Source: Asanoa sp. WMMD1127 | GTDB lineage: Bacteria; Actinomycetota; Actinomycetes; Mycobacteriales; Micromonosporaceae | Assembly: GCF_029626225.1 (NCBI RefSeq) | Contig: NZ_JARUBP010000001.1 | Location: 1,736,001-1,800,000, forward strand | DNA: 64,000 bases | Direction: 5' to 3' | Shown: positions 8,079 through 63,504 of the stretch, piece after piece | Layout: each line of letters opens with the position of its first letter | Numbering within the stretch: the first letter of the stretch is position 1 | The notes under the pieces: model-generated | What the model saw: only the letters and a program-made list of their open reading frames with translations | Databases searched by the model: none | What the model was told of the DNA's origin: nothing | Program-made: the position numbers and the translations under genes

Positions 8079-8113
8079 AACGGCCCCCGGTCCACACTGG
8101 ACCGGGGGCCGTT
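8079..8113. terminator. Bidirectional hairpin terminator
   Basis: A perfect 16-bp inverted repeat (8079-8094 with 8098-8113) around a 3-base loop sits between two convergent genes, AA at one end and TT at the other. It can terminate both. Confidence 0.85.
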
Positions 8114-8129
8114 CAGGAGGGAAGAGAAG

Positions 8130-9257: not shown

Positions 9258-9364
9258 AAAACCCCCGTATGGTTACAAAGGACGCAGATATGCTGGCACG
9301 AAAGATCGCGTTCGCAGGGCTGCCCCGCCGGACGTCACCCGTGCGGGTCTGTGATCGTTGACCG

Positions 9365-10114: not shown

Positions 10115-10478
10115 GCCTCGAGTCTCCCGGCGGCCGAAGGCGCCGAAGGTGCCGCCCGCTTCACCGCGGCGAGGGCCGCCACGGCATTCGCAGGCGACCG
10201 CTATGCCTCAAGTCTTTGGCGGCCGGCGCCGCCGAAGGCGCGGCCCGCTTCACCCACGCCGAGGGCCGCTACGGCACGACCGCCGGCGGCTGTTAGGCCG
10301 CGACTCCCCGGCCGCCAGCGCCGCCGAAGGCGCCGCCCGCTTCACCGCGGCGAGGGCCGCTACGGCACGACCGCCGGCGGCCGTTAGGCCGCGACTCCCC
10401 GGCCGCCAGCGCCGCCGAAGGCGCCGCCCGCTTCCCCGCGGCGAGGGCCGCCACGGCACGCCCGCGAGCGGCCGGCAG
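10023..10478 (+). repeat. Tandem array of about 91-bp units derived from the 3' end of the crotonase gene
   Basis: Five units begin at about 10023 (inside the gene), 10115, 10205, 10297 and 10388, giving periods of 92, 90, 92 and 91 bp. Each contains a GCCGCCGAAGGCGC-type block, CCCGCTTCACC or a close variant, GCGAGGGCCGC and CACGGCAC, and most end in GTTAG or a variant. The units shift frame because the period is not a multiple of three. No gene is supported in 10115-10523 on either strand. Confidence 0.9.
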
Positions 10479-10522
10479 GAAGGCCGCCTTCCTATGCGAG
10501 AAGCGATAAGAAGGGGCCCTTC
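10477..10522. repeat. Pair of short palindromes between convergent genes
   Basis: Arms AGGAAGGC/GCCTTCCT around one base (10477-10493) and GAAGGG/CCCTTC around one base (10510-10522), separated by 16 bases. Placed just after the stop of the minus-strand lipoprotein gene and after the crotonase-derived array. Plausible as a bidirectional terminator or a dispersed intergenic repeat of this lineage. Confidence 0.55.
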
Positions 10523-10523
10523 C

Positions 10524-11279: not shown

Positions 11280-11297
11280 GCGAAGACCTCCAAAGGG

Positions 11298-11335
11298 GAG
11301 TGCCCCGGGGACTCGGCGTTGCCCCCGGGGCACTC
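11298..11335 (-). terminator. Hairpin after the distal GH87 gene
   Basis: Perfect 13-bp inverted repeat, arms 11298-11310 and 11323-11335, 23 bases downstream (minus strand) of the stop of the large glucanase gene. It separates the alpha-glucan locus from the lipoprotein gene. Confidence 0.75.
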
Positions 11336-11357
11336 GGTCTCGAAGAACCGAACAGAA

Positions 11358-36721: not shown

Positions 36722-36795
36722 GGCCAGGTAGCTCAGTTGGTACGAGCGTCCGACTGAAAATCGGAAGGTCGGCGGTTCGACCCCGCCCCTGGCCA
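36722..36795 (+). tRNA. tRNA-Phe (GAA), integration target
   Basis: Acceptor GGCCAGG with CCTGGCC, T-arm CGGTTCGACCCCG, anticodon loop CTGAAAA with GAA. The 3' half from 36753 is repeated at 54011, so this tRNA is the attachment site of the adjacent element; the gene itself stays intact. Confidence 0.95.
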
Positions 36796-36860
36796 CATAG
36801 CCTTTCGCCGGGCTACAGCAGCGTCCACCAGCGGAAACGCGTCGGTGGGCGTTTTGCTTT
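36753..36860 (+). repeat. attL: 108-bp direct repeat at tRNA-Phe
   Basis: From the anticodon loop of tRNA-Phe through its terminator, identical to 54011-54118 except at 36839 (G here, A at 54097). Crossover must lie within this identity. Confidence 0.95.
36822..36855 (+). terminator. tRNA-cluster terminator (duplicated in attR)
   Basis: Stem CGTCCACC/GGTGGGCG (36822-36829, 36844-36851) followed by TTTT. The whole structure recurs at 54080-54113 within attR. Confidence 0.8.
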
Positions 36861-36925: not shown

Positions 36926-38266
36926 TCAGGCTGTCCGGCCGCGGGCGACGTAGCCGCGGGTCTTCTTGGCAAGATCCATTGCGGCCTGCTCCTGGAGTGA
37001 GCCGTAGATGTCGCTCGTGATCGCGATTGACTTGTGTCCGAGGGTCTTGCTGACCACCGCGATGTCCGTGCCCATGGAGATCAACCATGCGGCCCGGAAG
37101 TGGCGGAGCGCGTGCAGCTTGGCTGCCGGGATGTTGGCTCGCCGCAGCAGCCGCGAGACGACCTTGGTGATGTAGTCGGGGTGGTACGGCGTGCCGTCCT
37201 CCCTCGTGAAGATGTAGCCCGCGTCGTGGTAGTCGGTGCCCCACGCGAGGCGCTCCTTGGCCTGCTTCGCGCGCCAGGCGGAGAGGTCTTTGCGCGCGTC
37301 GGCGTCGAGGTAGACGACCCGGTCCTGGCCCGCCTCCGTCTTGGCCTCGCGTTCGACCACCTGGTAGCCGACGCTGACGCGCTGTCGGCGGACGACGAGG
37401 CGACCCGTCTTGAGGCTGACGTCCTCCCACTTGAGGCCGGCGAGTTCGCCTCGGCGGAGACCGGAGTAGCCGGCGACGACCACGAGCGGGAACAGCCGCT
37501 CGTTGACGATCCGGTCCAGGAGAGCCGCGTACTGCTCTGGCTCCGGTGGCGTGACCTTGTGCCGGTCGACGCGCGGCAGTTCGGCGTCCATGGCGACGTT
37601 GCGCGGGATGAGTCCCGCCTTGACGGCGCTTTTGAGCGATCCTGACAGGCAGGCGTGGATACGGGCGACGCTGGCGGACGAGATCGGTCGCGGGACCGCG
37701 ACCCGCTTCGGCGCGACCATGCGGATCTTGCCGGCCGCTTTCCGTTTCGCGTTGACCCGCTCGGCCTCGTCTTTGTGGATCTTGTTCTTGGCTTCGGCCG
37801 CCGCGATCTCTTCGCGCCGCTCGCGCTGGATCTCCGCGTACGCGCGGGTGATGTCCAGCCCGCGCAGCTCGGCGAGCTTGCGATGGCCGAGCTTCGGGAC
37901 GAGATGGTTCTTGATGTTGTCGGCGTAGCCGCGCGCCGTGGTGTCCTCGATCTCGTCGCGCTTGATCTTGCCGTCGAGCCACTCGGGCAACCACTCACCG
38001 AGCGTCTTCTTGGTGTCGCTCGGGAGCGTGCCGGTCGCGTGCCGACGGACTGTCTCGGCGCGAGCTTCGGCCGCGTCCTTGACGCTCTTGTAGCCGTCCT
38101 TGCCGAACTGGCGCCGCTTGCCGTTGGCGCCAGCCGATGCCTCGAACCGCCACGAGAACGTGTGCGTCCGGCAGCGTTCGCCCTTGGGCGGGCACGCCTC
38201 GGTGCAGCGCTGGTACACCCCCTTCTGGCGGGGTGCCGGTCTGTACCACGTCTTTGCCAAGGTCAT
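36926..38266 (-). CDS. int: Tyrosine-recombinase integrase
   Basis: The ATG at 38266 follows AAAGGAG by about five bases and gives 446 residues. The N-terminal part is a zinc-ribbon-like Arm-binding region with several Cys and His (YQRCTEACPPKGERCRTHTF), then the SAM-like core-binding domain from about 80 and the catalytic domain with YSGLRRGEL (Arg), LHALRHFRAAW (His-x-x-Arg) and the tyrosine in SDIYGSL. It catalyses integration and excision at tRNA-Phe. It ends 65 bases from attL, the normal position. Confidence 0.93.
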   Translation of the reverse strand: MTLAKTWYRPAPRQKGVYQRCTEACPPKGERCRTHTFSWRFEASAGANGKRRQFGKDGYKSVKDAAEARAETVRRHATGTLPSDTKKTLGEWLPEWLDGKIKRDEIEDTTARGYADNIKNHLVPKLGHRKLAELRGLDITRAYAEIQRERREEIAAAEAKNKIHKDEAERVNAKRKAAGKIRMVAPKRVAVPRPISSASVARIHACLSGSLKSAVKAGLIPRNVAMDAELPRVDRHKVTPPEPEQYAALLDRIVNERLFPLVVVAGYSGLRRGELAGLKWEDVSLKTGRLVVRRQRVSVGYQVVEREAKTEAGQDRVVYLDADARKDLSAWRAKQAKERLAWGTDYHDAGYIFTREDGTPYHPDYITKVVSRLLRRANIPAAKLHALRHFRAAWLISMGTDIAVVSKTLGHKSIAITSDIYGSLQEQAAMDLAKKTRGYVARGRTA

Positions 38267-38284
38267 TTGCTCCTTTCGATATGT

Positions 38285-38325
38285 GAGGTGTACCCACACC
38301 GTACGCCCAGGTGTGGGTACACCTC
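38285..38325. promoter_or_regulatory. 16-bp inverted repeat between int and xis
   Basis: Perfect arms 38285-38300 and 38310-38325 (core GTACCCACAC/GTGTGGGTAC) separated by nine bases, 19 bp upstream of the integrase start. It is either a regulator's operator or an attenuating hairpin controlling int. Confidence 0.6.
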
Positions 38326-38786: not shown

Positions 38787-40541
38787 TCAGGCGCGCCAGC
38801 GGCCGCGGGCGACTTGGCGGGCGCGGCCCGCGGCCGCGTGGACCTGGAGCCGGTCGTAGATCCACGTACGCCGCATGCCAGTGATCCTCATCAGTTCAGG
38901 CACGGCGAGGCCGTCATCCGGCGCTTGCTCCAGTGCCGACAGCAGCGTCCGGTCTGGGTCCACGGTCGAATGCGGGTCGATGATCTCGCTCGGCTCGATC
39001 GGTGTCGTGGTGTGGTCGATCGCTGCTTGGGAGAGCGGATCGAGGTCGGGCCGCGTGCTGGAGTAACGCGCGGCCGTCGCGCTGACGTGGTCGTCGGTAA
39101 CCAGGTAGGCCCGCGCACGACGCGGCTGTGTGTGGCCGTCGGCGAGCACGTAGAACTTGCCTGGGGCGTCGAGGGTATGAGCGTGCCAGCCAGCGGCCAG
39201 CAAGCCCTTGTCGAGGATGAGATCGACGTCCCGGCGTTCCCGGACCCGTAGGCAGACGCGGACGCTCATCTGCGAGCGCAGTGCCCCGCCTCCCATGGCC
39301 TTCTGCGTCGGGCGCTGAGTTGCGGCGAGCAGGTCAACGGCGACGGCCCGTCCGCGTCGGGCGATGGACTCGGCGTGCGCTACAGCCTCCGGGGCGGTGT
39401 CGGCAAGCTCGGCGTACTCGTCGATCACGATCACGAGCGCCGGTGCCGCCGCGGTGGGCTGCCACACGCGGCTGTTGTCCCGGCTGGACGCGTGGGCGCG
39501 GGCTTCGAGCACGGCGACGGCATCGGCTAGGAGGCGGGTCGCCTCGGCTGGCGTGGTCGCCAGCCGCGCGAGACACGGCGCCCACGGACGTAGCTCCATG
39601 CCTCCCTTGAGGTCGATGCCCCACAGGACCACGTCGGGGCACGCGGCGAGGTTGCCGAGGATGACGTTCAGTACGCCGCTCTTGCCGGAGTCCGTCGTGC
39701 CGCCAATCAGCGCGTGGCGCCGCTGGAGCGGGACGCGGACAGTGGTCGCGTCTTCGAACACGCCGAGTTCGATCGGATCGGCGAGGGATCGGGCGGTTGG
39801 CCCGGGCCACGGGATGGCGCCGGCGTGCGGATCGGCGGCGAGCACGCGCATCACGAACCGACCAGCGTGCGCCGGGTCCTGCTCGACGCGGACCGCACCG
39901 GGTCGGGTGCCGAGTGCGGATTCGATCGCGGGAACGTGGGCGATGACGTCCGCGACCGTCTGACCGGGTCGTAGCGACATCCGGGCGCGCCAGCCCCACG
40001 TGTCGACCACGGCCGACCGGATGCGCGAGCCCGTGAGGCCGATCGCCTCCGCGATGTCGGGCCAGGCGTGGATGACCCGGTCGACCTTTACGCGGGCGCG
40101 GCGGCGCCGGTGGGTCCACCAGGGCACGGCGAGCACGACCGTGCCGAGGACGAGGACCATGAAGAGCGGTCCGCTCCCCGGGCCGTACGCGGTCGCTGCG
40201 CTGAGCCAGGCGCCAGCGGCGGCACTCGCGATTGCCGCGTAGACGCGTTCCTCGGTGCGTTTGATGCCCCACGGCAGACCGCGCAGCCCGGCGGCGAGCG
40301 TCGCAGCGACGGTTGCCAGCGAGACCCACGGCCACGCGTAGGCGTGCGCGTGGTGCAGCCACACCGAGGCGATGCCAAGCACCAGCGCGGTCGTCAGGGG
40401 TGCGAGTTCGGAGCGGTAGCGGAACAGGCCACGCCCGATCGCGGCAATCGCGATGAGGAAGAGCGGCTCGTCAGGCACGAGGAGCAGCGGCTGCGGGTTG
40501 CGACGGCTCCACCGGCGGTGCCGCCGTCCGTATGCCCTCAT
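38787..40541 (-). CDS. FtsK/SpoIIIE-type DNA translocase (TraB-like transfer protein)
   Basis: The ATG at 40541 overlaps the next gene in ATGA and gives 584 residues. Three or four membrane segments lie in the first 150 residues. The motor domain starts near 200, with Walker A GGTTDSGKSG near 285 and Walker B LVIVIDEYAEL near 375, then QRPTQKAMGGGALRSQM. A winged-helix segment (DDGLAVPELMRITGMRRTW) closes the protein. In AICEs such hexameric motors move double-stranded DNA between mycelia. Length fits a conjugative FtsK-like protein. Confidence 0.9.
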   Translation of the reverse strand: MRAYGRRHRRWSRRNPQPLLLVPDEPLFLIAIAAIGRGLFRYRSELAPLTTALVLGIASVWLHHAHAYAWPWVSLATVAATLAAGLRGLPWGIKRTEERVYAAIASAAAGAWLSAATAYGPGSGPLFMVLVLGTVVLAVPWWTHRRRRARVKVDRVIHAWPDIAEAIGLTGSRIRSAVVDTWGWRARMSLRPGQTVADVIAHVPAIESALGTRPGAVRVEQDPAHAGRFVMRVLAADPHAGAIPWPGPTARSLADPIELGVFEDATTVRVPLQRRHALIGGTTDSGKSGVLNVILGNLAACPDVVLWGIDLKGGMELRPWAPCLARLATTPAEATRLLADAVAVLEARAHASSRDNSRVWQPTAAAPALVIVIDEYAELADTAPEAVAHAESIARRGRAVAVDLLAATQRPTQKAMGGGALRSQMSVRVCLRVRERRDVDLILDKGLLAAGWHAHTLDAPGKFYVLADGHTQPRRARAYLVTDDHVSATAARYSSTRPDLDPLSQAAIDHTTTPIEPSEIIDPHSTVDPDRTLLSALEQAPDDGLAVPELMRITGMRRTWIYDRLQVHAAAGRARQVARGRWRA

Positions 40542-40849
40542 CGGCCGAGGCTCGCGTCGGGCGCCCACGGCTTGTGCTCGGCGACCTGGTCCCGGAGATA
40601 GGCGAGCGGGTCGGCTTCGCCGTCCTTGTCGGCGTCGAGCGTGGCGCGGGTGGCGGCGAGCAGGTCAGCGAAATCCCACCTGGCGCGGGACAGGAGCGAG
40701 GCGAGCCGGTCGAGCTCGGCGAGCAGGACCGGGATGTCAGCGATGGCGGTCCAGATGTGGGTTGGTGTCAGGCGGGTCTGTGCGGCGTGCAGGTGAGCAG
40801 TGATGGCCTCCGGGTCGACTGTGGGTCGTGGCACGTACGGCGTGGTCAT
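40538..40849 (-). CDS. Small AICE protein of unknown function
   Basis: A 103-residue helical protein (HLHAAQTRLTPTHIWTAIADI, then a Leu-rich segment around LLAELDRLASLLS) with no membrane segment or known motif. It overlaps both neighbours by four bases (ATGA), so its product is made with the translocase. Similar small proteins occupy this slot in other AICEs; the role is not known. Confidence 0.75.
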   Translation of the reverse strand: MTTPYVPRPTVDPEAITAHLHAAQTRLTPTHIWTAIADIPVLLAELDRLASLLSRARWDFADLLAATRATLDADKDGEADPLAYLRDQVAEHKPWAPDASLGR

Positions 40850-41731: not shown

Positions 41732-41991
41732 CGTGTGCCGCCGTGAGATTCGCGGCGGCCGGACCGGCGGCGCCGTAGCCGGCTGGCGCGGTCGAGGTCG
41801 GCGTTGCTCAGGCGCGTGCGGTGCCGCCGGTTCCAGCGCTGGCGGGCAACGCACTTGCGGCAGAGGGTCGGATGGTCGGCGTCGAGCTGGGCACCGCAGG
41901 GACAGGTCGGCTCCGCGGACTGGTTGTTAGGTGTGATCGTTGATCCCTCCTCTCGGGCAATGCCGATCGCGTCGGTCGCATCGGCTGCCAT
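41728..41991 (-). CDS. Small zinc-ribbon protein, first gene of the transfer operon
   Basis: An 87-residue protein starting at ATG 41991. A CxCGxx...CRKC zinc ribbon (CPCGAQLDADHPTLCRKC) lies in the middle, followed by a strongly basic C-terminus, suggesting nucleic-acid binding. The ribosome site is weak, and GAGAGGAGGG lies a little downstream, so the start is uncertain. It leads the minus-strand operon across a promoter gap from the divergent HTH gene. Confidence 0.55.
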   Translation of the reverse strand: MAADATDAIGIAREEGSTITPNNQSAEPTCPCGAQLDADHPTLCRKCVARQRWNRRHRTRLSNADLDRASRLRRRRSGRRESHGGTR

Positions 41992-42097
41992 CGAGAGTGC
42001 TGGGAATAGACGGGACGTAATCAGGTCGTGGCTGGACGTGTCAGAGATGTCTCGCCTATCGTGGTGCGGTCGCGGGGACGTCTTGACTGGGGAGACG

Positions 42098-42841
42098 ATG
42101 GCGAACGATCGACTACGCACTGCGATGCTCGAACGTGGCGTCACTCCGCAGGACCTGGCGGAGAAGCTGAACGTCGACCCCAAGAGCGTCGAGCGGTGGG
42201 TCAACGGACGGACGCCGTACCGGCGACACCGGTACGCGGTCGCGGCACACCTCGGCGTGGACGAGGCCTACCTATGGCCCGACGCCCTCACCAGGGATCA
42301 AGCGGCGAACGCCAGCGAGAGCGAGATCATCAATATTTTCCCGCACCGCTGGACAGTGCCCACGGACTTGTGGCGGAACTTCTTCGACACCGCAGAGGAC
42401 GAGATAGGTGTCCTGGTGTTCAGCGGCCTGTTCATCCCGGAGGACGCAGGAATCCTGCGCGTCTTCCGCCGCAAGGCCGACGATGGCGCCCGCGTGCGCA
42501 TCCTGCTCGGCGACCCAACCAGCGAGGTCGTGGCTCAACGCGGCTTGGACGAGGAGGTCGACGACCTCCAGGCGGCGCGAATCAGGAACTCGATCGCGCT
42601 CTACCGGTCGCTACGCGACGTCGAGGGGATCGAGTTCCGCTTGCACCGGACCGTCCTCTACAACTCGATCTATCGCGCGGACAACCAGTTGCTTGTGAAC
42701 TCCCACATCTACGCCCTTCCCGCGTCGAGCGCACCCGTGCTGCAACTCCGCGCGGTCGCAGGCGGCAGCATGGTCACCACCTACATGGAGAGCTTCGAAC
42801 GCGTCTGGATGGGCGCCACGCCGCTGGAATGGGAGAGCTGA
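42098..42841 (+). CDS. HTH regulator with C-terminal DUF5919/PLD-like domain, paralog 1
   Basis: The ATG at 42098 follows GGGGAGA and gives 247 residues. An N-terminal XRE-type helix-turn-helix (LAEKLNVDPKSVERWVNGRT) is followed by a domain from about 85 (RWTVPTDLWRNFF, EIGVLVFSGLFIPEDA, RVRILLGDP) with the shape of a phospholipase D-like fold; the HKD-like segment reads LHRTVLYNSIYRAD, lacking the Lys, so enzyme activity is doubtful. It likely represses the divergent transfer operon, as in AICEs where such proteins sit beside NUDIX genes. A second copy is at 44731. Confidence 0.8.
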   Translation: MANDRLRTAMLERGVTPQDLAEKLNVDPKSVERWVNGRTPYRRHRYAVAAHLGVDEAYLWPDALTRDQAANASESEIINIFPHRWTVPTDLWRNFFDTAEDEIGVLVFSGLFIPEDAGILRVFRRKADDGARVRILLGDPTSEVVAQRGLDEEVDDLQAARIRNSIALYRSLRDVEGIEFRLHRTVLYNSIYRADNQLLVNSHIYALPASSAPVLQLRAVAGGSMVTTYMESFERVWMGATPLEWES

Positions 42842-43779: not shown

Positions 43780-44328
43780 CTACGAGCCGTTGACGAGCGC
43801 TCGTATCGTTTGGACAGAACCGACGATCCTCGAACTCGCCTCTCGGATCGACTCGGCGACGACATCGCCGTTGCCGTACCGGGAAAGGATCTCCGCGAGG
43901 CGCTGGTGAACGTCGACCGGATCACCGTCCGGACTCGTGGTCATGTCCGCGTAGGTCAGCGCGTCGGAAACCAGCCCGTCGACCTCGGGGAACTCGGTGA
44001 GAAGCTGCTCGTCGAGATCCCGGTTGCGCGCCTCGATGGCGGCACACGAGTGGTGGGCAACGAGGCGACACACGAGGCTGTCGACCTGGGCGACGTCCCG
44101 CAGATATCGCGCGCCGTCGAGCTGATGCAGTCCAGTGCGCACCAGGTCTGGCGCATAGCCCACGTCATGGAGCCAGGCGGCGCGCACCAGAGCCTCGGCC
44201 TGATCGCCAACCAGATGAGCGACGGCCTCGGCCTTACGCCCAACACCCTGACTGTGCGCCCAACGACGCGGCAGCGACTCGGCCAGCAGAAGGCGCGCAA
44301 GGTCCCGCGCACGTTCAGCCGCCTCCAC
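43780..44328 (-). CDS. HD-domain hydrolase
   Basis: A 182-residue HD phosphohydrolase: RRWAHSQGVG (first His), AAWLHDVGYA (His-Asp), LVAHHSC (His) and TYADMTTSP (terminal Asp) form the metal-binding set. Such small HD proteins hydrolyse nucleotides or phosphoesters. Convergent with the preceding gene, and downstream of an 82-residue gene on the same strand. A role in the element's own signalling is only inferred. Confidence 0.83.
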   Translation of the reverse strand: MEAAERARDLARLLLAESLPRRWAHSQGVGRKAEAVAHLVGDQAEALVRAAWLHDVGYAPDLVRTGLHQLDGARYLRDVAQVDSLVCRLVAHHSCAAIEARNRDLDEQLLTEFPEVDGLVSDALTYADMTTSPDGDPVDVHQRLAEILSRYGNGDVVAESIREASSRIVGSVQTIRALVNGS

Positions 44329-44730: not shown

Positions 44731-45501
44731 GTGAACGGTCCGCTCGCACGAGCACTGCGCAGCGCCGGCCTCGACGCCACCGGCGCCGCGGCGCGGCTGG
44801 GCGTCGATCCAAAGACTGTGCAGCGGTGGATGGCAGGAAGAATGCCGTACCCGCGGCATCGCGACGCCCTCGTGCGCCTGACCCGATGGGCACCACACGA
44901 CCTATGGCCGAACCTTCCCCACCCGGCAGAACCGGCCAGGGCGGACGACGAGGTCCGGATCGTCTACCCGCACCGATCGTCGGTGCCGACCGACGCGTGG
45001 ACGCGGCTGCTCGGCAGCGCCGAGCAGGAGATCGGCGTGCTCGCCTACAGTGCTCTCTTCCTAGCCGAGGACGCATCGGTCCCGCATATCCTCCGCGAGA
45101 AGGCGCAAGCAGGAGTGCGGGTCCGAATCGCACTTGGAGACCCAGAGAGCGAACACGTCGCACGCCGAGGTGACGAGGAGGGCATCGGCGACGGAATGAG
45201 CGCCCGCATTCGCACGGCGCTCGTGGGCTTCCAGCCGCTCACTGAGGAGCCCAACTTTCGGATCCGTCTCCATGACACGGTGCTCTACAACTCGATCTAC
45301 TGGGCGGACCACGAGTTGCTCGTCAATACTCACATCTATGGCCGGCCAGGTGCGCATGCGCCGGTCCTACACCTCAGACAGGTACGACTGGACGGCATGG
45401 TCACCACGTATCTTGCCTCGTTTGAGCGCGTCTGGTCAGCGGCGCGAGACGCCGCAAGCGGCGCGTACCAAGGCCACGAGGTCCCGGCCCGCGGAGCCTG
45501 A
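44731..45501 (+). CDS. HTH regulator with C-terminal DUF5919/PLD-like domain, paralog 2
   Basis: A 256-residue GTG-start protein with the same order as paralog 1: XRE-type HTH (AARLGVDPKTVQRWMAGRM), then RSSVPTDAWTRLLGSAEQEI, RVRIALGDPESEHVARRG and the Lys-less LHDTVLYNSIYWADHELLV. The two proteins are clearly homologous yet far from identical. In this element one may govern transfer and the other the HD/82-residue unit. Divergent from the latter across the TAGGGAC repeat. Confidence 0.78.
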   Translation: MNGPLARALRSAGLDATGAAARLGVDPKTVQRWMAGRMPYPRHRDALVRLTRWAPHDLWPNLPHPAEPARADDEVRIVYPHRSSVPTDAWTRLLGSAEQEIGVLAYSALFLAEDASVPHILREKAQAGVRVRIALGDPESEHVARRGDEEGIGDGMSARIRTALVGFQPLTEEPNFRIRLHDTVLYNSIYWADHELLVNTHIYGRPGAHAPVLHLRQVRLDGMVTTYLASFERVWSAARDAASGAYQGHEVPARGA

Positions 45502-45823: not shown

Positions 45824-46529
45824 GATGCCTCCTCGGGCTTGGGCGAGGCGCGGGAAAGGGTCATGCCGTCGGCGCACGACCTGTGCAGACCAGGCGTCGC
45901 GACCCCAAACCGTCAGTCGCCACAATTGAGAACTTTGCAGATCAGGCCCAGGCCGACGGCCGATCAATGACGTAGCGGCCCATGTCAGTAGGTGACCAAC
46001 CGGACGGAACCATGCATCTGTCGCTTACCGCTGAGTGTCCTGTCCTCCGCCGATCCTCACCCCACCCTGTACCTGCAGCCCGGCCGCCCGGAGGCTGTTG
46101 TCACGGACGGCCGGGGCCTCAGGAGTGGATAACCACCGCCGGGACGTGGCGTTCCGCCCCAAGAAGAGTCGCGGCGTCAGCACAAATGCGGAACCGCATC
46201 TTCACGGACGTCCCGGGACACTTCGCTGTCCCGGACGGAGTACACGATGGCCGGCGCCAGGCACGGGGATTGGTGTCGGCTCGTTGCGACCTTTTGGTAG
46301 AGGCCGACCGGCTCATTCCTTAGACGTCGCGGCAGAGTTGGCCACTATCCACAAGGGTGTGCCGCCGATCGGCATCCGTCGGAAGCTGCTAGTCCGCGCA
46401 CCTGGACACTTGCAGAACAGTCGGCAAAGTTGAGATACTGAGAGTAGGTGACCGCGTTCGGCTGCGGAGATGCGTGCCAAACCTCCATAGGAGAACACGT
46501 CGCCAATATCGACCTGAGGCGGCCCGACC
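45824..46529. other. Long intergenic stretch without a supported gene
   Basis: About 700 bp between the DUF6907-like and the pyruvate-kinase-like gene. Several short frames exist on both strands but none has a ribosome site or a recognisable product. It may be decayed coding sequence or regulatory; a GTCCCGGGAC-type short palindrome near 46209 and an inverted copy near 46229 are the only motifs seen. Confidence 0.5.
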
Positions 46530-47552
46530 CTAACGCATCCGCAGAGATTTCCAGCGGTCAGCGATCGTCCTAACTACGCGTACAGCCTCCACCGGCTTCG
46601 AACCAAATGCCGACTCATATGACAACATGAGCCCGGCACAGCCGGAGTCGAGCCAATGCCAGATGTCACAAATCTCGGCACGAGTAGGAATGGAGAAGCG
46701 CTCAAGGCCCTCAACCAATTGAGTTGCGAGGACCCACGGAACGTCAGCTTGAACCGCCGCTTGTGCAATCTTCTCGACGTAGAAAGGCAATTCCGCCCAG
46801 TGCGCGGACAGAGCGAGGTCTCCACGAGCGGCCATCACGAAGTCAGACACCGCGCAGATAGAGTCCAGCCTTTCTATCCCCCGCATGGTCTCAATCTTGG
46901 CCACGATTTTCAGATGAGGCGCGCGTTTCGCCAGAAGATCGCGGAGGTCGTGAATATCCGCATCGTTTGATGCAAAGGACAGGGCAACTGCATCGAAACA
47001 GCCACTGTTGGCGATGAAGTCAATCGCTGCAAGATCTTTTTTACAAAGGGACCGCGGAACGTACCCACCGCCCTGGATCGTTAATCCTCTAGACTGTTCA
47101 ACCGTGCCGCTAGCAGCCAGATGAACCATTGCGCTCCTTAGATCAGCGCCAATGGCGTCAACCACTAATAAAGCACCGCCATCGCCAACCACCACATGAT
47201 CGCCCACACTGAGGTTTGCGAAGAATGCCTGGTCAGTCACTGGCAACTCGCGAGACACCGCCACGTCAGATCGCGCACCATGGACGAGTCTCAAGGACTT
47301 TCCTGCCTCCAGTTTGACGGACAGACCCTCGTCGAACCGGCCCAGCCTGAACTTCTCCCCTGGAAGGTCCGCAACTACAATAGAACTGACATCATTCCGA
47401 TCGGCATACTTTTTGAACGTCAGCGCAGTTCTTTCATGCACTTCATAGGCATCGTAAGAGAACCCCAGCCGAACACCAGTTGCGCCTGCTTCAACGAGCG
47501 CTTCCTCCTTGCCTGAAGCCGCAGGGCCAGCCGTGTACCAGAGCATCGACAC
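46530..47552 (-). CDS. Pyruvate-kinase-like protein lacking the C domain
   Basis: A 340-residue protein with the pyruvate-kinase A and B domains only. R28 and F31-S32 correspond to the RLNFS site, but the Asn is Gly30 and the His is Tyr33. The B domain holds ADLPGEKFRLG (Asp62). Downstream K219 and E221 in KIET, RGDL (243-246), T277 in ATQL and TRAE (290-293) match catalytic and metal residues. The allosteric C-terminal domain is absent. It could transfer phosphate between PEP or another acid and a nucleotide, but the altered K+-site residues make a true pyruvate kinase uncertain. Last gene of the cargo operon, with an 80-bp gap upstream. More A/T than the host genes. Confidence 0.8.
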   Translation of the reverse strand: MSMLWYTAGPAASGKEEALVEAGATGVRLGFSYDAYEVHERTALTFKKYADRNDVSSIVVADLPGEKFRLGRFDEGLSVKLEAGKSLRLVHGARSDVAVSRELPVTDQAFFANLSVGDHVVVGDGGALLVVDAIGADLRSAMVHLAASGTVEQSRGLTIQGGGYVPRSLCKKDLAAIDFIANSGCFDAVALSFASNDADIHDLRDLLAKRAPHLKIVAKIETMRGIERLDSICAVSDFVMAARGDLALSAHWAELPFYVEKIAQAAVQADVPWVLATQLVEGLERFSIPTRAEICDIWHWLDSGCAGLMLSYESAFGSKPVEAVRVVRTIADRWKSLRMR

Positions 47553-47632
47553 GTAGTTACTCTACATCCCCGCGCCAACGTACGGCCTACACCAGGCGCC
47601 AATATAGGTGCAAAGCGTCCGCACCAACCGTG

Positions 47633-48700
47633 TCATTCAATCAAACTAGCCCCGAGAAGACGCGATACGTAGGCTTCAAGGCCAGCCGTAAACCACGAGT
47701 CAGCAGCGAACCGCTCGGAATCCAGCGTGAGGAGCCGACCCGAATGTCCCTCGTGTACTAGGTGGACGCCTTCTTCATCGATCACCTCTCCTACGTGGTG
47801 CACAGGCACGCCAAGCAGCGAACATGCGTCCTCGATCATATGAACGCTACCGGCAGCGGCGGTGGCAACCAGTTGCCAATCTCCCCAGCCCAGCGCTAAT
47901 CGTACCGGGTCAACGTCAAGCTCTGCCGCTACAGCTAAGACCTCCTCAGAGAAGCCCACTGCGGAAAAGTTCAGCCTAACGCCCACACGACTTGCATGAC
48001 ATAGACCGTTCAAGGACGGGAAAAGGCCATCCGAGTTGTCCATGACTGCGGTTACCAATGAGGCTCTAGCGAGCGCCGAGCCGACTGCGACCTTGGGCTG
48101 AGGCGTTAATACGTTGCGCAAGAGTCGATTCCTGTATCGCCGCAGGCTTTCCAAGCCACGTGTAACGGAGAGATACCCGGCCCAAAATAGGCCAAGGTCG
48201 CCAAGGACGAGCACTACATCACCAACTTTCGCCCCCTTCCGGCTGAGTGGCTGCCCGAGACAGGTGCCAATAGCCGTTCCTGAGAGAGCGACCTCCTTCG
48301 CCTCCTTTAAATTGCCGCCGACAACTGCCGCCCCACTCTTGGCGCAGCACTCGTCCAAGCCATCGAGTATTCGAAGAAACTGCTTCAACAGCATCGACCT
48401 AGGTAGTTCGTATGAAGCGAGAAAACTTCGCGGGACCGCGCCGGCGGCTGCAATGTCGCTAAGGTTGATTACACCGAGAAGCCAGCCCCAGTAGTAAAAG
48501 TCATCAAAGCCAAGCAGCGATGCGACCGGAATGGGGCACGGGTCAGTGGATGCGACCACAGGCCCGAGCAATTCCTCAACCTCAAGAACACGAGCACAGT
48601 CATCACCGAAATGGTCGTTGGCAGCGCCATACCGGGGAGCAAGAACCTGAGAAATCAACGCTCGCTCTCCGATATCACCCAACGCGACATCGTCCTTCAT
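47633..48700 (-). CDS. ThiL-like (AIR-synthase-superfamily) protein
   Basis: A 355-residue protein of the PurM/ThiL fold. FGDDCARV, VASTDPCPIP, INLSDIAAAGAVP near residue 78 and VVGGNLKEAKEVALSGTAIG follow the ThiL order; TAVMDNSDGLFPSL near 218 is the second-domain active-site strand. ThiL phosphorylates thiamine phosphate, but no thiamine genes are near and several binding residues differ, so an ATP-dependent kinase with another substrate is likely. ATGA overlap with the methyltransferase gene shows operon coupling. Confidence 0.8.
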   Translation of the reverse strand: MKDDVALGDIGERALISQVLAPRYGAANDHFGDDCARVLEVEELLGPVVASTDPCPIPVASLLGFDDFYYWGWLLGVINLSDIAAAGAVPRSFLASYELPRSMLLKQFLRILDGLDECCAKSGAAVVGGNLKEAKEVALSGTAIGTCLGQPLSRKGAKVGDVVLVLGDLGLFWAGYLSVTRGLESLRRYRNRLLRNVLTPQPKVAVGSALARASLVTAVMDNSDGLFPSLNGLCHASRVGVRLNFSAVGFSEEVLAVAAELDVDPVRLALGWGDWQLVATAAAGSVHMIEDACSLLGVPVHHVGEVIDEEGVHLVHEGHSGRLLTLDSERFAADSWFTAGLEAYVSRLLGASLIE

Positions 48701-49878
48701 GTGTCTGCATTATTTCTCGCCAGAATGATCCGCTCTTCGTGTACCTGCGGCTTCATAACTCGGCGTTTTGAGACGTTCCGGGTAAGGCGCGCCTCAACAG
48801 TGAACCCAATCTTCGCGAGGTCAATCTCGAAGTCGTCCAGATACGTATCTCGATTAGGCGACTCCCCAATCACAATGGCACACATAGCACCAACCTTCAG
48901 AACGCGCGCGATCGCCATAAAGGATTTCCCCATGTCACTCATGTATTCAGACAGAGCGGTTAAGCGACGCCGCCTGTATCGTGCGCCTGTCTCGTCAGCT
49001 CGGCAGTCTTCCAAACTCCACTCGAACCAAAGAAATGTGAGTCGCTGCGAGCGGACGTAGTCGGTCATCCCGAAGTACGGAGGCGAAGTCACGACCAAAT
49101 CGACCGAACGCGGGGGCAAGCCGGCAAGAACGGTAGCGCAAGAGCCTCGTACTACATGTGCGACCGGCGCCTGCATGTCAGCCGTTTCCTGACCTAGATG
49201 TAGTTCTGCAGCGGAGGTCGCGTACTGTTCAAGCCGCTGAAAGAAGAGAGTCATTGCCGACTTGTACACAAACTCCTTCGGCCACACGTTGTCACAAATC
49301 CAGCCCCAATGTTTGGTCTGACTGCAGGCGAATCGCAGAATGGCCGAAAAGGTGGCCTCTGCAACGAGACGATACTCGCTATCCTGTGCCCGAATCGCTT
49401 GCCATATAGCGGATAGTTCGGCTAGAGTGTCTGGGTGATACCACTTTGCGTTTTCTAGGTAGTTTGGAACCTCTTCGGAGATGGTTGCCCAGTTCGACTT
49501 CCCCCCTCGGACGAAGAAGTGCTGGCAGGAATGCTTAAGGGAGTCTCTAAAACTCTTCCAGCCTTCCCGTTCAAAAGGTATGAGCTTGGCAGAACTCATC
49601 AACGTCGCGGCCGGGTTGGTGTCAACCCCTAAAGATGAGCGACCGAGTCTATGTGCCTCTACAAGAGTTGTGCCACTCCCACAGAACGGATCGAGGACCA
49701 CCTCACCTGGTCTGCTGAAGTAGCCGATAAGCACACCAGGAACATTAGGCACGAACCTAGCTGGGTACCAGTGGTACCCAGCTAGGCCGGTGTTTCCGCT
49801 TGCGCCGTCGAAGTCCCAGTCAAGACCGCGCAGCTCAGAAAGGTAGTTCTGCCTGACCAGCGATTTCATATACTCCAC
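48697..49878 (-). CDS. DNA methyltransferase, N4-cytosine/N6-adenine type
   Basis: A 393-residue protein (GTG 49878; an ATG at 49869 is also possible). The AdoMet motif is VLDPFCGSGTT near residue 61-71 and the catalytic motif IV is TSPPYFGMTDY near 268. SPPY is usual in N4-cytosine and some N6-adenine enzymes, with the target domain between the two. It has no partner nuclease in this block, so it may mark DNA for a system other than classic restriction. Its start overlaps the HD gene by 44 bases. Confidence 0.87.
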   Translation of the reverse strand: MEYMKSLVRQNYLSELRGLDWDFDGASGNTGLAGYHWYPARFVPNVPGVLIGYFSRPGEVVLDPFCGSGTTLVEAHRLGRSSLGVDTNPAATLMSSAKLIPFEREGWKSFRDSLKHSCQHFFVRGGKSNWATISEEVPNYLENAKWYHPDTLAELSAIWQAIRAQDSEYRLVAEATFSAILRFACSQTKHWGWICDNVWPKEFVYKSAMTLFFQRLEQYATSAAELHLGQETADMQAPVAHVVRGSCATVLAGLPPRSVDLVVTSPPYFGMTDYVRSQRLTFLWFEWSLEDCRADETGARYRRRRLTALSEYMSDMGKSFMAIARVLKVGAMCAIVIGESPNRDTYLDDFEIDLAKIGFTVEARLTRNVSKRRVMKPQVHEERIILARNNADT

Positions 49879-51121
49879 GCTTCGATGGGATAGGACTTCT
49901 TCGGTCCGGCGCCAAGCCGAACTCTTCCAAAACCTCGATAGCCTTCTCTTGCATCCATCGGACCGGCTTTACATGCCTTCTGCTCGTAAAGACTCCTGCC
50001 AGAGTAGAAACTGATGTCTGACCGATCTCCTCAGGTACCCAACCGTCCCGGCCTATTATCCGAAGAGAAAGCCTCTTTTCGAAGGTGCCACGATCATAGA
50101 AGACGTAAGGAACGCAGGGAATTCTCAGCCGCTCCTCGAGACGGGCACGCAGCTCTGCTCGGGGCTCCGGGGCCCTCAGGTCCACGTCCCCCATAGGTTG
50201 CCTGTACCAGCCCACAAAGACGGTAGAAAAGAAGTCACCGACAAAGAACCGCTGAACTATTGACGAAACCCCTTTGACCTTCGGCCGCATCCCAGCAAGG
50301 TACTTGAGTATATCTTCGTCTGTGAGGCTCCAGTGCTCTTCTCCGAGGAGGCCGGCGTCGATGGCGGCGGTGAAACACTCGGTAAGCATTGCCTGGCTTT
50401 GAAGCGTCGGCTCATCAAATGCCAGGATCTCATAAGCCTTCCTACGCCACTTCCGCCATAGGTGGAGGTGTTTGAGGGCGGATTGCGATACACCTAGCGT
50501 CGTTTCGTCTGGGAAGAGGCCTTGAGCCAGGCTCGTCGCTGCCCCTATGTCCGGTTGAAATCCCAGACTGACGGACATTCTGTATACGTTGTCGATATTG
50601 TCGAGATCGACCGAGCCAGCGACGAGCCTTCCTAGAGGCCCCACGCCCATCACCATGTCCACAACAGACTTCGGGTCGATCTGCATGGTCTCCAGGATCG
50701 CCTTTAGCCTCAGTCCTTGCCCATGGTAAACCTGGTGATAAATCGATTCCGGGCGGTAATCGCCCTCGATTATGTGCACCAACATGGACTCGTGAGTCCA
50801 GCCGCCGGTTGACTTAAGGATGTATTCAAATAGATGGGCGAAAGCCGGACTACCAACATCATGCAACACCACTGCGGCTAAGAACGTTTCCACGTCCTCC
50901 TTCGTGTGCTCTTGACGTAACCTGGGCGCCAGCCTTAGACCGAGCGCGAGGACTCCTAACGTATGGGCATACCGCCGGACGTCGCTTAGCGCAGCGAGAT
51001 TGGGTGTCGAGGTGTTGATTAGTCGAACTTCACGCAGGCGCTGAACCTCCGGCGCAGCTAAGAGGGAGGTAATTCCGTCAGGCACGCTGAAGGGACCGTA
51101 CAGCGGATCGGCAACAAACAC
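49835..51121 (-). CDS. SAMHD1-like HD-domain (d)NTPase
   Basis: A 428-residue protein beginning at GTG 51121, directly after the stop of the upstream gene, with GGAGG seven bases before. The start ADPLYGPFSVPDGITSLL and RRYAHTLGVLALG (H53), LHDVGSPAFAHLFEY (H87-D88), WTHES (H110-E111) and SVDLDNIDN (Asp172-177) form the HD metal site of dNTP triphosphohydrolase relatives (SAMHD1/Dgt). The canonical second His after HDxG is Ser91, so activity may differ. dNTP depletion is a known anti-phage strategy, but here it is only inferred. Confidence 0.85.
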   Translation of the reverse strand: MFVADPLYGPFSVPDGITSLLAAPEVQRLREVRLINTSTPNLAALSDVRRYAHTLGVLALGLRLAPRLRQEHTKEDVETFLAAVVLHDVGSPAFAHLFEYILKSTGGWTHESMLVHIIEGDYRPESIYHQVYHGQGLRLKAILETMQIDPKSVVDMVMGVGPLGRLVAGSVDLDNIDNVYRMSVSLGFQPDIGAATSLAQGLFPDETTLGVSQSALKHLHLWRKWRRKAYEILAFDEPTLQSQAMLTECFTAAIDAGLLGEEHWSLTDEDILKYLAGMRPKVKGVSSIVQRFFVGDFFSTVFVGWYRQPMGDVDLRAPEPRAELRARLEERLRIPCVPYVFYDRGTFEKRLSLRIIGRDGWVPEEIGQTSVSTLAGVFTSRRHVKPVRWMQEKAIEVLEEFGLAPDRRSPIPSKRGVYEIAGQAELPF

Positions 51122-52348
51122 CTATTTTCCTCCGATCCACTTCCAAATTGCTGTCGCAAGTACTCCGAGCATTACTGCTGCCGCAACTCCCCCGGCGACC
51201 CGTAGCCATGCCCAGATATCGGCATCGATGGATATCGCTGTTCCCGCTAGCCCTATGGCAAGCAATGCCAGAGCCGTAAGAGCTTGTCGGATTCGAGTGT
51301 GAGAGACGACCTGCGCCACCCGCGGGACCACGTTTCGAGGCGACCGCTTCACGGCTGCTTCGAAGGCGTCGAAGAGGCGACTCGCCCAAAGTTGATCCAC
51401 CGTTGCAATGCGGTGGCTCGAACGTGCGCGAAGTCCGCCGTTGGCTTTCACGTTGGTTGAGGCATACCTAACAACGTCAAGCGTGTACTCGCGGGTTGCC
51501 TGGGGATTACCAGCTTGGATTAACGCTAGGGCGACCAATATGTCAGTCGGGTAGAAGACGTAGTGGTTGCGTTGACCGGCCTTTTCCCGAACCGAGTAGT
51601 GATAAGACCGGCTTTCTCCGATGACTTGAGGCTGACGACCACCTGCCCAGTTCAGAAGGCGACTAACTGCCATATCATGCGCCGCATCAAATTCGTGGAC
51701 GGCGGATTTAAACCCTTGATAGTCTGCGAGCGCAAGGACCGCTAGGGCTAGCTCATCTGGTTGCAGATCAGCGTCTTCTGAAAGTTCTCGACATATCCAG
51801 GCCGTGACGTGTTCCGCGTCTGCGGAGGTTTTAAAAATTCGCGAATGACGGAGGCTATACATGGCTTGAGCAGTGGCTAAGAACTTGGGTGACGTGTCTC
51901 TGTCGTCGTCATCGTAGTAGTAGTATCCCCAGCCGCGACCGTCGATAATTTTGCTTTTCAAAAGCCTCTCGAATGGTCTCAAATTGTCGCTTTGTCGACC
52001 CGCATACTCAGCGTCGACCAGCGCGGCTAGCTTAAAGGTGATGCCAAGGTCGGCCAAGTCGTATGCAGGCGACTTTGACGTCGGAGAAGAGGCATCAGGC
52101 ACGCCCCCCCAAGCTTGACGAATAAGACGATTATCTGGAGCCATCCCGGCGATCGTAAGTATTTCGATGGCTGCCGACGTCCCGTAGAATCCGAACTGAC
52201 TTACTTGACGCGAATCGTCCAGGAATTGCCCCCAAGCAACGGCATCACCGATATTGAGGGCCGTCGCTTGCACCAGCTCCCCGATTCGATACCGAGACTC
52301 TCGCGCCTGCTGAGCAAGGCGATTGACGTGCCGCGCGGTAGCGATCAC
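51122..52348 (-). CDS. Alpha-toroid-like protein with two C-terminal membrane helices
   Basis: A 408-residue GTG-start protein with GGGAGCG upstream. The first 340 residues look like an (alpha/alpha) barrel: QFGFYGTSAAIEILTIAG, GRGWGYYYYDDDDRD followed by SPKFLATAQAMYSL, and LQPDELALAVLALADY are repeats like those of terpene cyclase/prenyltransferase-type barrels. Two membrane helices end it (near 355-372 and 379-402). No catalytic DxDD motif is seen. It is probably a membrane sensor or scaffold and leads the five-gene operon. Confidence 0.65.
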   Translation of the reverse strand: MIATARHVNRLAQQARESRYRIGELVQATALNIGDAVAWGQFLDDSRQVSQFGFYGTSAAIEILTIAGMAPDNRLIRQAWGGVPDASSPTSKSPAYDLADLGITFKLAALVDAEYAGRQSDNLRPFERLLKSKIIDGRGWGYYYYDDDDRDTSPKFLATAQAMYSLRHSRIFKTSADAEHVTAWICRELSEDADLQPDELALAVLALADYQGFKSAVHEFDAAHDMAVSRLLNWAGGRQPQVIGESRSYHYSVREKAGQRNHYVFYPTDILVALALIQAGNPQATREYTLDVVRYASTNVKANGGLRARSSHRIATVDQLWASRLFDAFEAAVKRSPRNVVPRVAQVVSHTRIRQALTALALLAIGLAGTAISIDADIWAWLRVAGGVAAAVMLGVLATAIWKWIGGK

Positions 52349-52633
52349 CTCTCGCTCCCGTCTAGATTGTGATCTCTGGCGCTTGGGATTGCTGGGGTTT
52401 GTCAGCGTCAGGGTACGTGATCAGGTCCGATGACGTCAGAGCTGGGTCTCCATGGCGTGGGTCCACGGAAGCTCGTGTTGGCATCTTAAGTGGCGTCCCG
52501 GCTCCGGCCTAGCGGCCTGCTCAACGAGATTGACCCGACCACGAAGCGGCATCTCCGGCCCTAGGCGCAGATCTTGCTGAGCAGGGCGTGCAGCCCTACA
52601 CTTTCTACATCGGACGGTAGGGCGGTCGTGATC
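52349..52633. other. Divergent promoter region with a decayed frame
   Basis: 285 bp between the cargo operon and the HIT-family gene. A short frame around 52490-52570 reads SRLRPSGLLNEIDP, then a stop, reminiscent of an IS110-type transposase fragment, but the match is too short to rely on. Promoters for both divergent units must lie here. Confidence 0.4.
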
Positions 52634-53230
52634 ATGGAGCGAGACTGCGACTTCTGCGAGCGGTTAAGCGGTGCTCATCACAGCCGACCATGGTACGACT
52701 TCAAGATCTTGGATGCCGACGACGCCTTCGTCGTGGTAGCGGCTCTTGGAGCGTTGGCGCCTGGCCACATCATGGTCGTCACGAGAGATCATCTTGAAAG
52801 CATGGCCGAGTTGTCTGTCGAAAACATCCACAGATTAGAAGCGGTCGCAACCAGATGGACTGACAAAGTACGTGAGCGCTGGGGTTGTGCGTTTCTCTTT
52901 GAGCACGGAGGTCGCACGTCCGGCGGCGCATGCATTTCCCACGCGCATCTCCAACTCTTGCCGCTTGCCAGCCCGCCCCAATTCGCTGGCCAGGCCCTTA
53001 GTTCGCTTGCCGACTTACGGGACGTATGTGGAGGAGGCAGGTCGTATGTCCTCGTCTGGGACGATAACGGCATTAGGCTCGATCCTGATCGAAAACCTGG
53101 CGCGAGATCGCTGCGCCGTCTCATCGCTCACTCGCTCGGAAGGCCGGACGAGTGGGATTACCTGGTCTTCCCTAACCTAGATAACGTGCGTCGCACGATC
53201 GAGGGTCTAGAACCGCCGCGCGTGTCGTGA
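52634..53230 (+). CDS. HIT-superfamily protein of the GalT/Ap4A-phosphorylase type
   Basis: A 198-residue protein starting at ATG 52634 (a GTG at 52628 is possible). Cys5-Asp-Phe-Cys8 is a CxxC zinc motif. The active site is SHAHLQLLP with H103 and H105 and Gln in the third position, so HxHxQ instead of HxHxH. HxHxQ is the hallmark of the nucleotidyl-transferring branch (GalT, Ap4A phosphorylase), pointing to nucleotide transfer rather than simple hydrolysis. It is divergent from the five-gene operon and shares its low-GC character. Confidence 0.83.
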   Translation: MERDCDFCERLSGAHHSRPWYDFKILDADDAFVVVAALGALAPGHIMVVTRDHLESMAELSVENIHRLEAVATRWTDKVRERWGCAFLFEHGGRTSGGACISHAHLQLLPLASPPQFAGQALSSLADLRDVCGGGRSYVLVWDDNGIRLDPDRKPGARSLRRLIAHSLGRPDEWDYLVFPNLDNVRRTIEGLEPPRVS

Positions 53231-53272
53231 CGCCGCGCGGTTATGCCCTGCTCTAGCAAAGGCCTTGACGTG

Positions 53273-53572
53273 TCAATAGCGGACGTACGGCTGGCTGTAG
53301 CGAACCAAGACTGTCCTATCAGTTGGCCGCGTAAGAATCGGACCCCATACCTCGCCGTACTTGCATCCGAAGCGCTCCATTGCCGATTCCACAGCTATCT
53401 CTGCCGCACCCTTGTCGGCGCACCAGGCAACAGTCTCCCAGCCAGGGCCTTCTAGATCGCCTCTCGATGATCTGACTACCTTGCGCCATACCCGAGCCTC
53501 GTAGATGCGGTCGGCCGCCGGTGGTCGTGTTGCGGGAGCAGAACGCGGAAAGTCCAGGTCATCGAAGCGCAT
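53273..53572 (-). CDS. Small protein of unknown function at the right end of the element
   Basis: An ATG at 53572 gives 99 residues with a strand-rich middle (RIYEARVWRKVVRS, GWETVAWCADKGAAEIAVE) and a Tyr-rich end. I do not recognise it. A longer frame to 53836 exists but its extra part does not look like protein. It faces the HIT gene and ends 42 bases from it. Confidence 0.5.
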   Translation of the reverse strand: MRFDDLDFPRSAPATRPPAADRIYEARVWRKVVRSSRGDLEGPGWETVAWCADKGAAEIAVESAMERFGCKYGEVWGPILTRPTDRTVLVRYSQPYVRY

Positions 53573-54010
53573 GAGGCTAGGGTACGTTGATTCCCCTTGC
53601 GCCAACAGGCTCAGCAGTCGCACCTGCCTTGATGGGACCGCTGATAAGGCCTGCGGCTCGGGTGTGCCGACGCTACCTTGAGAGGTCTGGATGCCGAACC
53701 AGCCCAAGACGCCGCTTAGGCGAATTCGCTGCGACGAGTCTTTGTGGAACCGGTTCGGTGAGCTAGCGGAGCCTGACCGGTCGGCTGCGCTCCGCCAGTT
53801 CATGCGTTGGTACTGCCGCGAGCCGGGGGTCGTCATGCCTAAGAGGCCATCCGGAGATCGGAGCTGAGGCCCTCGTTGTTAGGACGGTGTCAGGAAACCG
53901 CGCCGAACTTGTACGAGCGGATCCGGACCACTTCGCGTGGAAGTCGACGCATGCACATGCTAGAGCTGGTGCTGGGCCATGGAAGGGCGGAGCCGGACCG
54001 CCAGCGTAGA
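53573..54010. other. Right-end noncoding stretch before attR
   Basis: Roughly 440 bp without a supported gene between the last cargo gene and attR. Nothing recognisable was found. Confidence 0.4.
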
Positions 54011-54118
54011 ACTGAAAATCGGAAGGTCGGCGGTTCGACCCCGCCCCTGGCCACATAGCCTTTCGCCGGGCTACAGCAGCGTCCACCAGCGGAAACACGT
54101 CGGTGGGCGTTTTGCTTT
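54011..54118 (+). repeat. attR: 108-bp direct repeat
   Basis: Copy of the tRNA-Phe 3' half and terminator (36753-36860, one mismatch at 54097). It lacks the 5' half of the tRNA and so is not a gene. Chromosomal sequence, the methyltransferase gene stop, begins at its right edge. Confidence 0.95.
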
Positions 54119-63408: not shown

Positions 63409-63504
63409 TGGCGGAGGCGTACGGGAATCGAACCCGCCTGACCCGGATGCCGGGCCACGCCGGTTTTGAAGACCGGGAGGGCCACCAGGCGCCCACTCAC
63501 CTCC
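63409..63504 (-). tRNA. selC: tRNA-Sec (TCA)
   Basis: On the minus strand GGAGGTG pairs with CGCCTCC at the acceptor (one T-G), the anticodon loop CTTCAAA holds TCA (reads UGA), a long variable arm (CCCGG/CCGGG) and T-arm GCGGGTTCGATTCCCGT are present. CCA is encoded (63409-63411). Long variable arm, extended D-stem and UGA anticodon together identify selC. Confidence 0.93.

Follow-up and report, generated by a model that had tools for sequence, protein, structure and literature searches.

What do the six cargo genes that an integrative element carries in Asanoa sp. WMMD1127 do, and do they act together? The block lies within a 64,000-nucleotide stretch of contig NZ_JARUBP010000001.1 (positions 1,736,001 to 1,800,000; hereafter the window, to which coordinates refer unless another locus is named), and a preliminary description of it had proposed a five-gene operon with a divergent HIT-family gene, possibly forming a nucleotide-based system. 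Two of the genes, encoding an HD protein with a modelled SAMHD1 fold and a DNA amino-methyltransferase, are a recurring core around which accessory genes are exchanged, with copies of the pair on a plasmid, on an integrative element and on contigs of phage type; the locus suggests a nucleotide-targeting defence system, so far unrecognised. The six open reading frames lie where they had first been placed, with the same overlaps and gaps:

46530-47552, minus strand: pyruvate-kinase-like protein without a C domain, after an 80-bp gap from the ThiL-like gene; this locus only.
47633-48700, minus strand: ThiL-like protein (AIR synthase fold), overlapping the methyltransferase gene by 4 nucleotides.
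48697-49878, minus strand: DNA amino-methyltransferase, core gene, overlapping the HD gene by 44 nucleotides.
49835-51121, minus strand: SAMHD1-fold HD protein, core gene, with zero gap to the next gene (Pfam HD, 8e-8).
51122-52348, minus strand: toroid-TM, an alpha-toroid-like protein with C-terminal hydrophobic segments; relative found in contig L029 only.
52574-53230, plus strand: HIT-superfamily protein, with relatives in L029 and in Rhizobium leguminosarum (L014).

Promoter and terminator scans of the block gave nothing clear against shuffled sequences.

The HD gene adjoins a permuted amino-methyltransferase gene in all eight distinct loci counted as the family, namely the window, L012 (R. 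etli plasmid pA), L015 (a Phycisphaerae metagenome-assembled genome), L023 (a genome within the window's phylum), the IMG/VR contigs L029, L031 and L033, and L121; L032, a near copy of L031, was counted once with it. The pair is recovered from both sides, by HD searches and by the methyltransferase search, with adjacency in 4/4 confirmed relatives in the methyltransferase scan and 5/5 in the HD scan, the contigs being partly shared. Moreover, the two frames overlap in at least five of the eight loci (window, L012, L029, L031 and L121), the overlap in L023 depends on the start codon, and an 8-bp gap separates the genes in L015 and L033. In a control, none of the 80 generic-methylase loci (L036-L115) kept out of 352 relatives in a loosened methyltransferase scan had an HD-family match. 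Control methyltransferases scored at most 123 bits in one profile search, against at least 458 for seven family loci, and the corresponding HD search separated the family (at least 498 bits) from other HD relatives (at most 88). The preliminary description, whose overall interpretation stands in part, had missed both this core and the exchangeability of the other genes.

Weaker HD matches were left outside the family. Those in G345, G129, G413, G496 and G644 were dropped, the last three scoring 41.8 to 47.4 bits within the first hundred residues; L010 looks like an ordinary dGTPase, and no such methyltransferase is read beside the HD gene of L024. The lower matches of the R. etli HD protein (11 plasmid records besides its own and 7 phage records, among which the Natrinema neighbourhood alone was read) were treated as general HD relatives.

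The structure model of the HD protein (predicted local distance difference test score, pLDDT, 81) is SAMHD1-like across most of the chain, with TM-scores of up to 0.73 to human and fungal SAMHD1; the 50 PDB matches listed for it comprise 49 to SAMHD1 and one to an entry with the label Cullin4, and a profile match to 9mr6 reaches 5.5e-21. Residues H53, H87-D88, H96, H110 and D172 are invariant across all eight loci and include the H..HD..D metal site (H53, H87-D88, D172); E99 is retained in seven loci and is Q in L121, as read. In animals and bacteria, SAMHD1-like enzymes deprive viruses of nucleotides.

Its partner matches Pfam N6_N4_Mtase in two pieces (1.6e-18) and is permuted, motif I (DPFCGSGTT) preceding motif IV (TSPPY). 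The patterns DPFxGxG[TS]T and [TS]SPPY are kept in seven of seven loci, and in L121 the motifs read DPYAGIGTT and TSPPY. With these motifs and a match to PADLOC MTase_II models along its length (best 1.9e-29), the enzyme resembles that of type II restriction-modification systems, but here an HD protein stands where the restriction endonuclease would, next to the methyltransferase in 8/8 loci; no restriction endonuclease matched among the six window proteins, and none was seen beside the methyltransferase.

Whether the remaining genes belong with this core is best judged from L029 (IMG/VR 3300035099_000516), a viral-collection contig that carries HIT, toroid-TM, HD, methyltransferase and ThiL-like genes in the order of the window, all five on one strand, whereas the HIT gene of the window lies on the opposite one. 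Identities to the window proteins are 21% (HIT), 29% (toroid-TM), 35% (HD), 40% (methyltransferase) and 49% (ThiL-like), and upstream on the contig lie a tape measure protein (5e-44) and matches to a major tail protein (1.1e-11) and a baseplate hub (4e-8). Conservation of at least four genes in a different mobile element, which had been named at the outset as what would support a joint unit, is thus found for five on this phage-type contig. The unit as first drawn holds for these five genes and not for the pyruvate-kinase-like gene: none lies in the 247 bases between the ThiL gene and the contig end of L029, so that its membership is not established and it was rejected as part of the conserved unit. 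That housekeeping-derived genes were assembled on the element by chance as unrelated metabolic cargo, as the ThiL and pyruvate kinase families and the confinement of the latter to this locus might suggest, is highly improbable given the shared order in L029, the HD-methyltransferase adjacency in all eight loci, and ThiL-like motif changes that are common to both copies and unlike five ordinary ThiL proteins. Plain housekeeping metabolism is contradicted for the HIT, toroid-TM, HD, methyltransferase and ThiL-like proteins, and is conceivable for the pyruvate-kinase-like one.

The ThiL-like protein matches AIRS (1.4e-16) and AIRS_C (4e-12) and falls below the ThiL equivalog (TIGR01379, 175.9 bits against a cut-off of 184.15). 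Compared with those five ordinary ThiL proteins, GGN replaces GGD and GWGDWQ replaces GG[DE]D; because these changes set it apart from ordinary ThiL and are common to the window and L029 copies, the protein is likely, as judged from its sequence, to be a kinase of this family with another substrate. The gene was discarded as a marker of relatives, ordinary ThiL being near universal (98 of 101 related genomes matched), and nine plasmid records that matched it, one neighbourhood of which was read, look like ordinary ThiL. Viral scans with the ThiL-like and toroid-TM proteins returned the contig of L029 only.

No Pfam match of toroid-TM reaches a curated cut-off. Its model, built from a two-row alignment, is weak (pLDDT 65), and its best matches, transcobalamin and complement-type toroids, stand at E-values of about 0.05, with none at 0.001 or better; a simple hydropathy scan places two segments at the C-terminal end. 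The pyruvate-kinase-like protein matches the pyruvate kinase barrel over residues 7-324 (1.4e-46), can be aligned to pyruvate kinase in its barrel segments, with 32% identity to the host enzyme, and falls below the corresponding equivalog (TIGR01064, 222.1 bits against 306.4); the match stops at residue 333 of 476 model positions, and the C domain is absent, as had been noted.

For the HIT protein, an ATG at 52634 agrees better with its relatives than the start at 52574, and its Pfam score is just below the cut-off (4.8e-4, 21.1 bits against 21.5). The HxHxQ signature reported initially is present in the window and not conserved, the final residue giving HxHxL in L029 and HxHxH in the Rhizobium relative, and a conserved HxHxQ transferase was therefore ruled out. 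Relatives across the phylum are weak (4/296, including its own genome). The Rhizobium relative lies in L014 (R. leguminosarum pRL1, 1608-13344) within a run of some twelve genes, all on one strand, whose sequences suggest a biosynthetic cluster; the record carries no annotation, and the names read from its sequence are nucleotidyltransferase, oxidoreductases, thymidylate-kinase-like, phosphoribosyltransferase, PfkB, NifS-like, TrpD-like and PhyH-like.

Around the core, four accessory sets can be told apart. Set A (window and L029) comprises the HIT, toroid-TM and ThiL-like proteins, with the pyruvate-kinase-like protein added in the window alone. Set B (L015 and L033) consists of a PP-loop protein, a transmembrane protein and a second methylase (pairwise E-values 1e-27, 1e-6 and 5e-30), and L033 additionally has a P-loop kinase. 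In set C, a FAD-type protein is found in L012, L023 and L121 (identity 42% between L012 and L121, 21% between L012 and L023), joined in L023 and L121 by a guanylate-kinase/dCTP-deaminase-like/transmembrane fusion (34% identity); a viral scan with the fusion returned the contig of L121 and one partial match, L126, and its deaminase-like domain, with its sequence read against the deaminase motif, seems to be without catalytic residues. Set D (L031) is made of a small methylase and, on the opposite strand, a P-loop kinase and a multi-transmembrane protein; for the kinase, PADLOC gives a match to its dCTPase model (3.6e-10, positions 156-327 of 630). L012 also encodes, at 9239-10789 and 316 bp upstream of its FAD-type/HD/methyltransferase genes, a 516-residue protein with a C-terminal nucleoside-phosphorylase domain (1.2e-15) and a match to a PADLOC PN-superfamily effector (8.4e-14). 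In each set, one locus or more encodes an enzyme that handles nucleotides or ATP, which bears out the nucleotide-handling theme proposed earlier, and one accessory protein per locus, L012 excepted, has a membrane-like segment in a simple hydropathy scan that also flagged three proteins that look soluble (L121 as read).

The surroundings of the pair are often viral: three loci are on contigs with phage tail genes and two more on contigs classed as viral (5/8). L031 is flanked by a phage tail protein and an endolysin, and L033 by phage replication proteins, an HNH nuclease and a ParB-methylase; the contig of L015 has a tape measure protein at least 5 kb from the locus, and neighbours of L121 read as RusA- and DnaC-like genes. 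Two loci follow type I restriction genes, L121 directly behind hsdS and hsdM (hsdR as read) and L015 directly behind hsdS (hsdM and hsdR as read).

The viral contigs would also suit the main rival explanation, a DNA- or nucleotide-modification system of mobile elements, in which accessory enzymes would synthesise either a modified nucleotide or an adduct of the base, kinases would make the triphosphate, the HD protein would destroy the competing normal deoxynucleoside triphosphate (dNTP), and the methyltransferase-like enzyme would act on the base, the DNA of the element thereby gaining resistance to host restriction. It is also favoured by the recurrence of P-loop and guanylate-type kinases, PP-loop, FAD, HAD and deaminase-like proteins, by the HIT relative in the seemingly biosynthetic R. 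leguminosarum run, and by a precedent for the HD protein in phage S-2L, which excludes a normal base through the HD dATP triphosphohydrolase DatZ (PMC8065100). The likeness to the DatZ/PurZ system of Z-genome phages (PMC8065100) lies in an HD phosphohydrolase within a phage nucleotide gene set; here, by contrast, the core includes a DNA methyltransferase, and reading of the immediate neighbours, made with no dedicated models, brought to notice neither a polymerase nor a base hydroxymethylase nor a PurZ-like synthase. Moreover, whole-genome replacement is not needed where the carrier is a plasmid or an integrative element, the methyltransferase retains ordinary motifs I and IV, and two loci sit behind type I restriction genes; we accordingly regard modification as a possible but rather doubtful function.

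In the window, the carrier is an integrative element of about 17.3 kb inserted at tRNA-Phe:

36745-36860, no strand: attL repeat, overlapping the 3' end of tRNA-Phe (36722-36796).
36926-38299, minus strand: tyrosine integrase (Phage_integrase, 1.4e-19), 96% identical to that of the sister element in congener G005.
38787-40568, minus strand: FtsK/SpoIIIE-type transfer protein (FtsK_SpoIIIE, 4.6e-12), 94% identical to that of G005.
46119-53681, no strand: cargo cassette, without blastn similarity to the G005 sister element.
54003-54118, no strand: attR repeat, identical to attL at 112 of 116 bases.

The 116-bp flanking repeat includes the final 52 bases of tRNA-Phe; among the matches listed, the attachment sequence has one copy each in congeners G001-G004 and two in G005. 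The sister element of G005 lies beside tRNA-Phe and shares the backbone (87.7% DNA identity across 9.1 kb) with different cargo. Cassette borders, set by blastn against it (E-values up to 1e-5), follow a long backbone match to about 45814 and a 42-bp match at 46078-46118, with similarity resuming from about 53682; because the backbone matches on both sides and other cargo lies between, the six-gene block is a swapped cargo cassette. The attachment repeats, the integrase and the sister element thus bear out the assignment to an integrative element, and the richness of the block in A/T is likewise upheld (G+C 0.564, against 0.682 in the element backbone and 0.709 outside the element). With its tyrosine integrase, FtsK-type transfer protein and attachment repeats at a tRNA 3' end, the carrier resembles actinomycete integrative and conjugative elements of the pSAM2 type.

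At the same position G005 carries a protein kinase (Pkinase, 4e-24; best PADLOC match PD-T4-6, 8.5e-36), an AAA_21-type ATPase (1.3e-6; best PADLOC match HEC-04, 5.4e-13) and two further proteins of 394 and 201 residues without family matches; defence-like genes may tend to collect at the cargo site of these tRNA-Phe elements. The sister cargo occupies 1393-6956 of L135 (G005:C34:32500-50500). Elsewhere in the window, the backbone holds two related regulator-like genes (41804-42841 and 44731-45501), each corresponding to a separate gene of the sister element (82% and 75%, against about 46% for the cross-match), and a small HD-like protein, as read, outside the cargo (43780-44328; 90% identity in the sister element); a tRNA-SeC gene lies at 63409-63504, close to the window end.

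The modelled SAMHD1 fold, the HD-methyltransferase pairing and the mobility of the locus are established by computation; from them we infer a substrate, a trigger and a role for methylation. Our preferred reading, held with moderate confidence, is a mobile, modular cassette for anti-phage or inter-element defence that would act through deoxynucleotides. The HD protein would hydrolyse deoxynucleotides or a modified nucleotide, so that an incoming phage or element could not synthesise its DNA, and the methyltransferase would mark resident DNA or sense foreign DNA and restrain the HD protein. Accessory kinases and HIT, FAD, PP-loop and deaminase-like proteins could make or remove a nucleotide that switches or feeds the HD protein, and the membrane protein could anchor the complex or be a second effector; in the window this set would be the HIT, toroid-TM and ThiL-like proteins, perhaps with the pyruvate-kinase-like one. 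In its favour stand the invariable pairing, the SAMHD1 fold with its invariant residues, the shared order of five genes in L029, the phage-type contigs, the type I restriction neighbours, the kinase with a dCTPase-model match, the guanylate-kinase/dCTP-deaminase-like/transmembrane fusion, and the protein kinase and ATPase at the cargo position of G005.

Several observations weigh against this reading. At the position of SAMHD1 H210, the second histidine of HDxGH, seven loci have S, T, T, A, S, I and I and L121 has S, as read; the histidine is thus replaced in every member, so that dNTPase activity may be changed or absent; with the metal site retained, the sequences suggest an active but altered hydrolase, and the protein may alternatively be catalytically inactive. 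The fit to the PADLOC dGTPase model is poor (0.0063 for the window protein, 1.4e-4 for that of R. etli, no match at 1e-4 for L121). Distances of HD and methyltransferase proteins over seven loci are uncorrelated in a mirror-tree comparison (r = -0.075, with 2722 of 5040 permutations as high), some clades agreeing nonetheless. Because the mirror-tree failed, the PADLOC match is poor and the histidine is changed, the simple reading is weakened. In addition, the count of eight out of eight rests on the score gap, weaker HD relatives having been left out with nearly all their neighbourhoods unread, and the PADLOC matches of the G005 cargo cover broad domain types, kinase and ATPase, and are perhaps generic.

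The family is also rare, which counts on the same side. In overlapping samples from the window's phylum, five of 396 genomes matched at 1e-10 (its own, G622 at 6e-80 and three weak partial matches), its own genome alone among 394 of the class at 1e-25, and three of 296 class genomes with the window HD protein at 0.001, two of them weakly; the source genome alone matched among 294 of the phylum of L015 at 1e-20 and among 40 of the class of L023. A separate record, L013 (Micromonospora terminaliae pLB1, 24.9 kb), lists several proteins twice in mirror order, as though through an inverted duplication or an assembly artefact.

Finally, no nuclease partner is seen for the methyltransferase, which leaves its role without explanation under defence and would fit an orphan or regulatory methylation module, in which the accessory enzymes would make a nucleotide messenger and the HD protein would be the signalling phosphohydrolase that acts on it. 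The recurring membrane proteins and nucleotide enzymes agree with such a module, as does the loss of the H210 equivalent, which suggests a non-standard substrate; yet no Pfam cyclase or signalling nucleotidyltransferase was found among the neighbours tested, nothing supports regulation of the carrier, and we consider this explanation unlikely.

Among the known systems closest to the proposed defence cassette is Clover, a phage defence in which the HD dGTPase CloA acts with CloB and an active-site mutant affects H126/E129 (PMC12265719). The likeness lies in the HD-domain dNTPase family and in an H-x-x-E spacing that equals H96/E99 here; the difference is that the HD gene is paired with a DNA methyltransferase and other accessory genes. 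Among the neighbours tested no nucleotidyltransferase beside the HD gene matched Pfam, a comparison in which no CloB model was searched; the neighbours in L029 are homologous to window genes. Depletion defences based on dGTPases or dCTP deaminases, the latter of the AvcD type, share dNTP-directed families with these loci, as in the dCTPase-model kinase of L031 and the dCTP-deaminase-like domain of two loci, and differ in that the present system has several genes, including a methyltransferase and a membrane protein, and a deaminase-like domain that seems catalytically degenerate. Among the papers listed in searches of an open-access library, none describes the HD-methyltransferase combination.

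The loci define a testable module of one recurring pair and several swappable accessory sets, of clonable length. Somewhat speculatively, they might represent a new class of mobile-element immunity in which a methylation state reported by the methyltransferase, and not a protein receptor or cyclic messenger, would trigger SAMHD1-type nucleotide destruction, interchangeable enzymes supplying the controlling nucleotide. If the defence reading is true, it would link DNA marking to nucleotide starvation and provide a mechanism for conflict between mobile elements.

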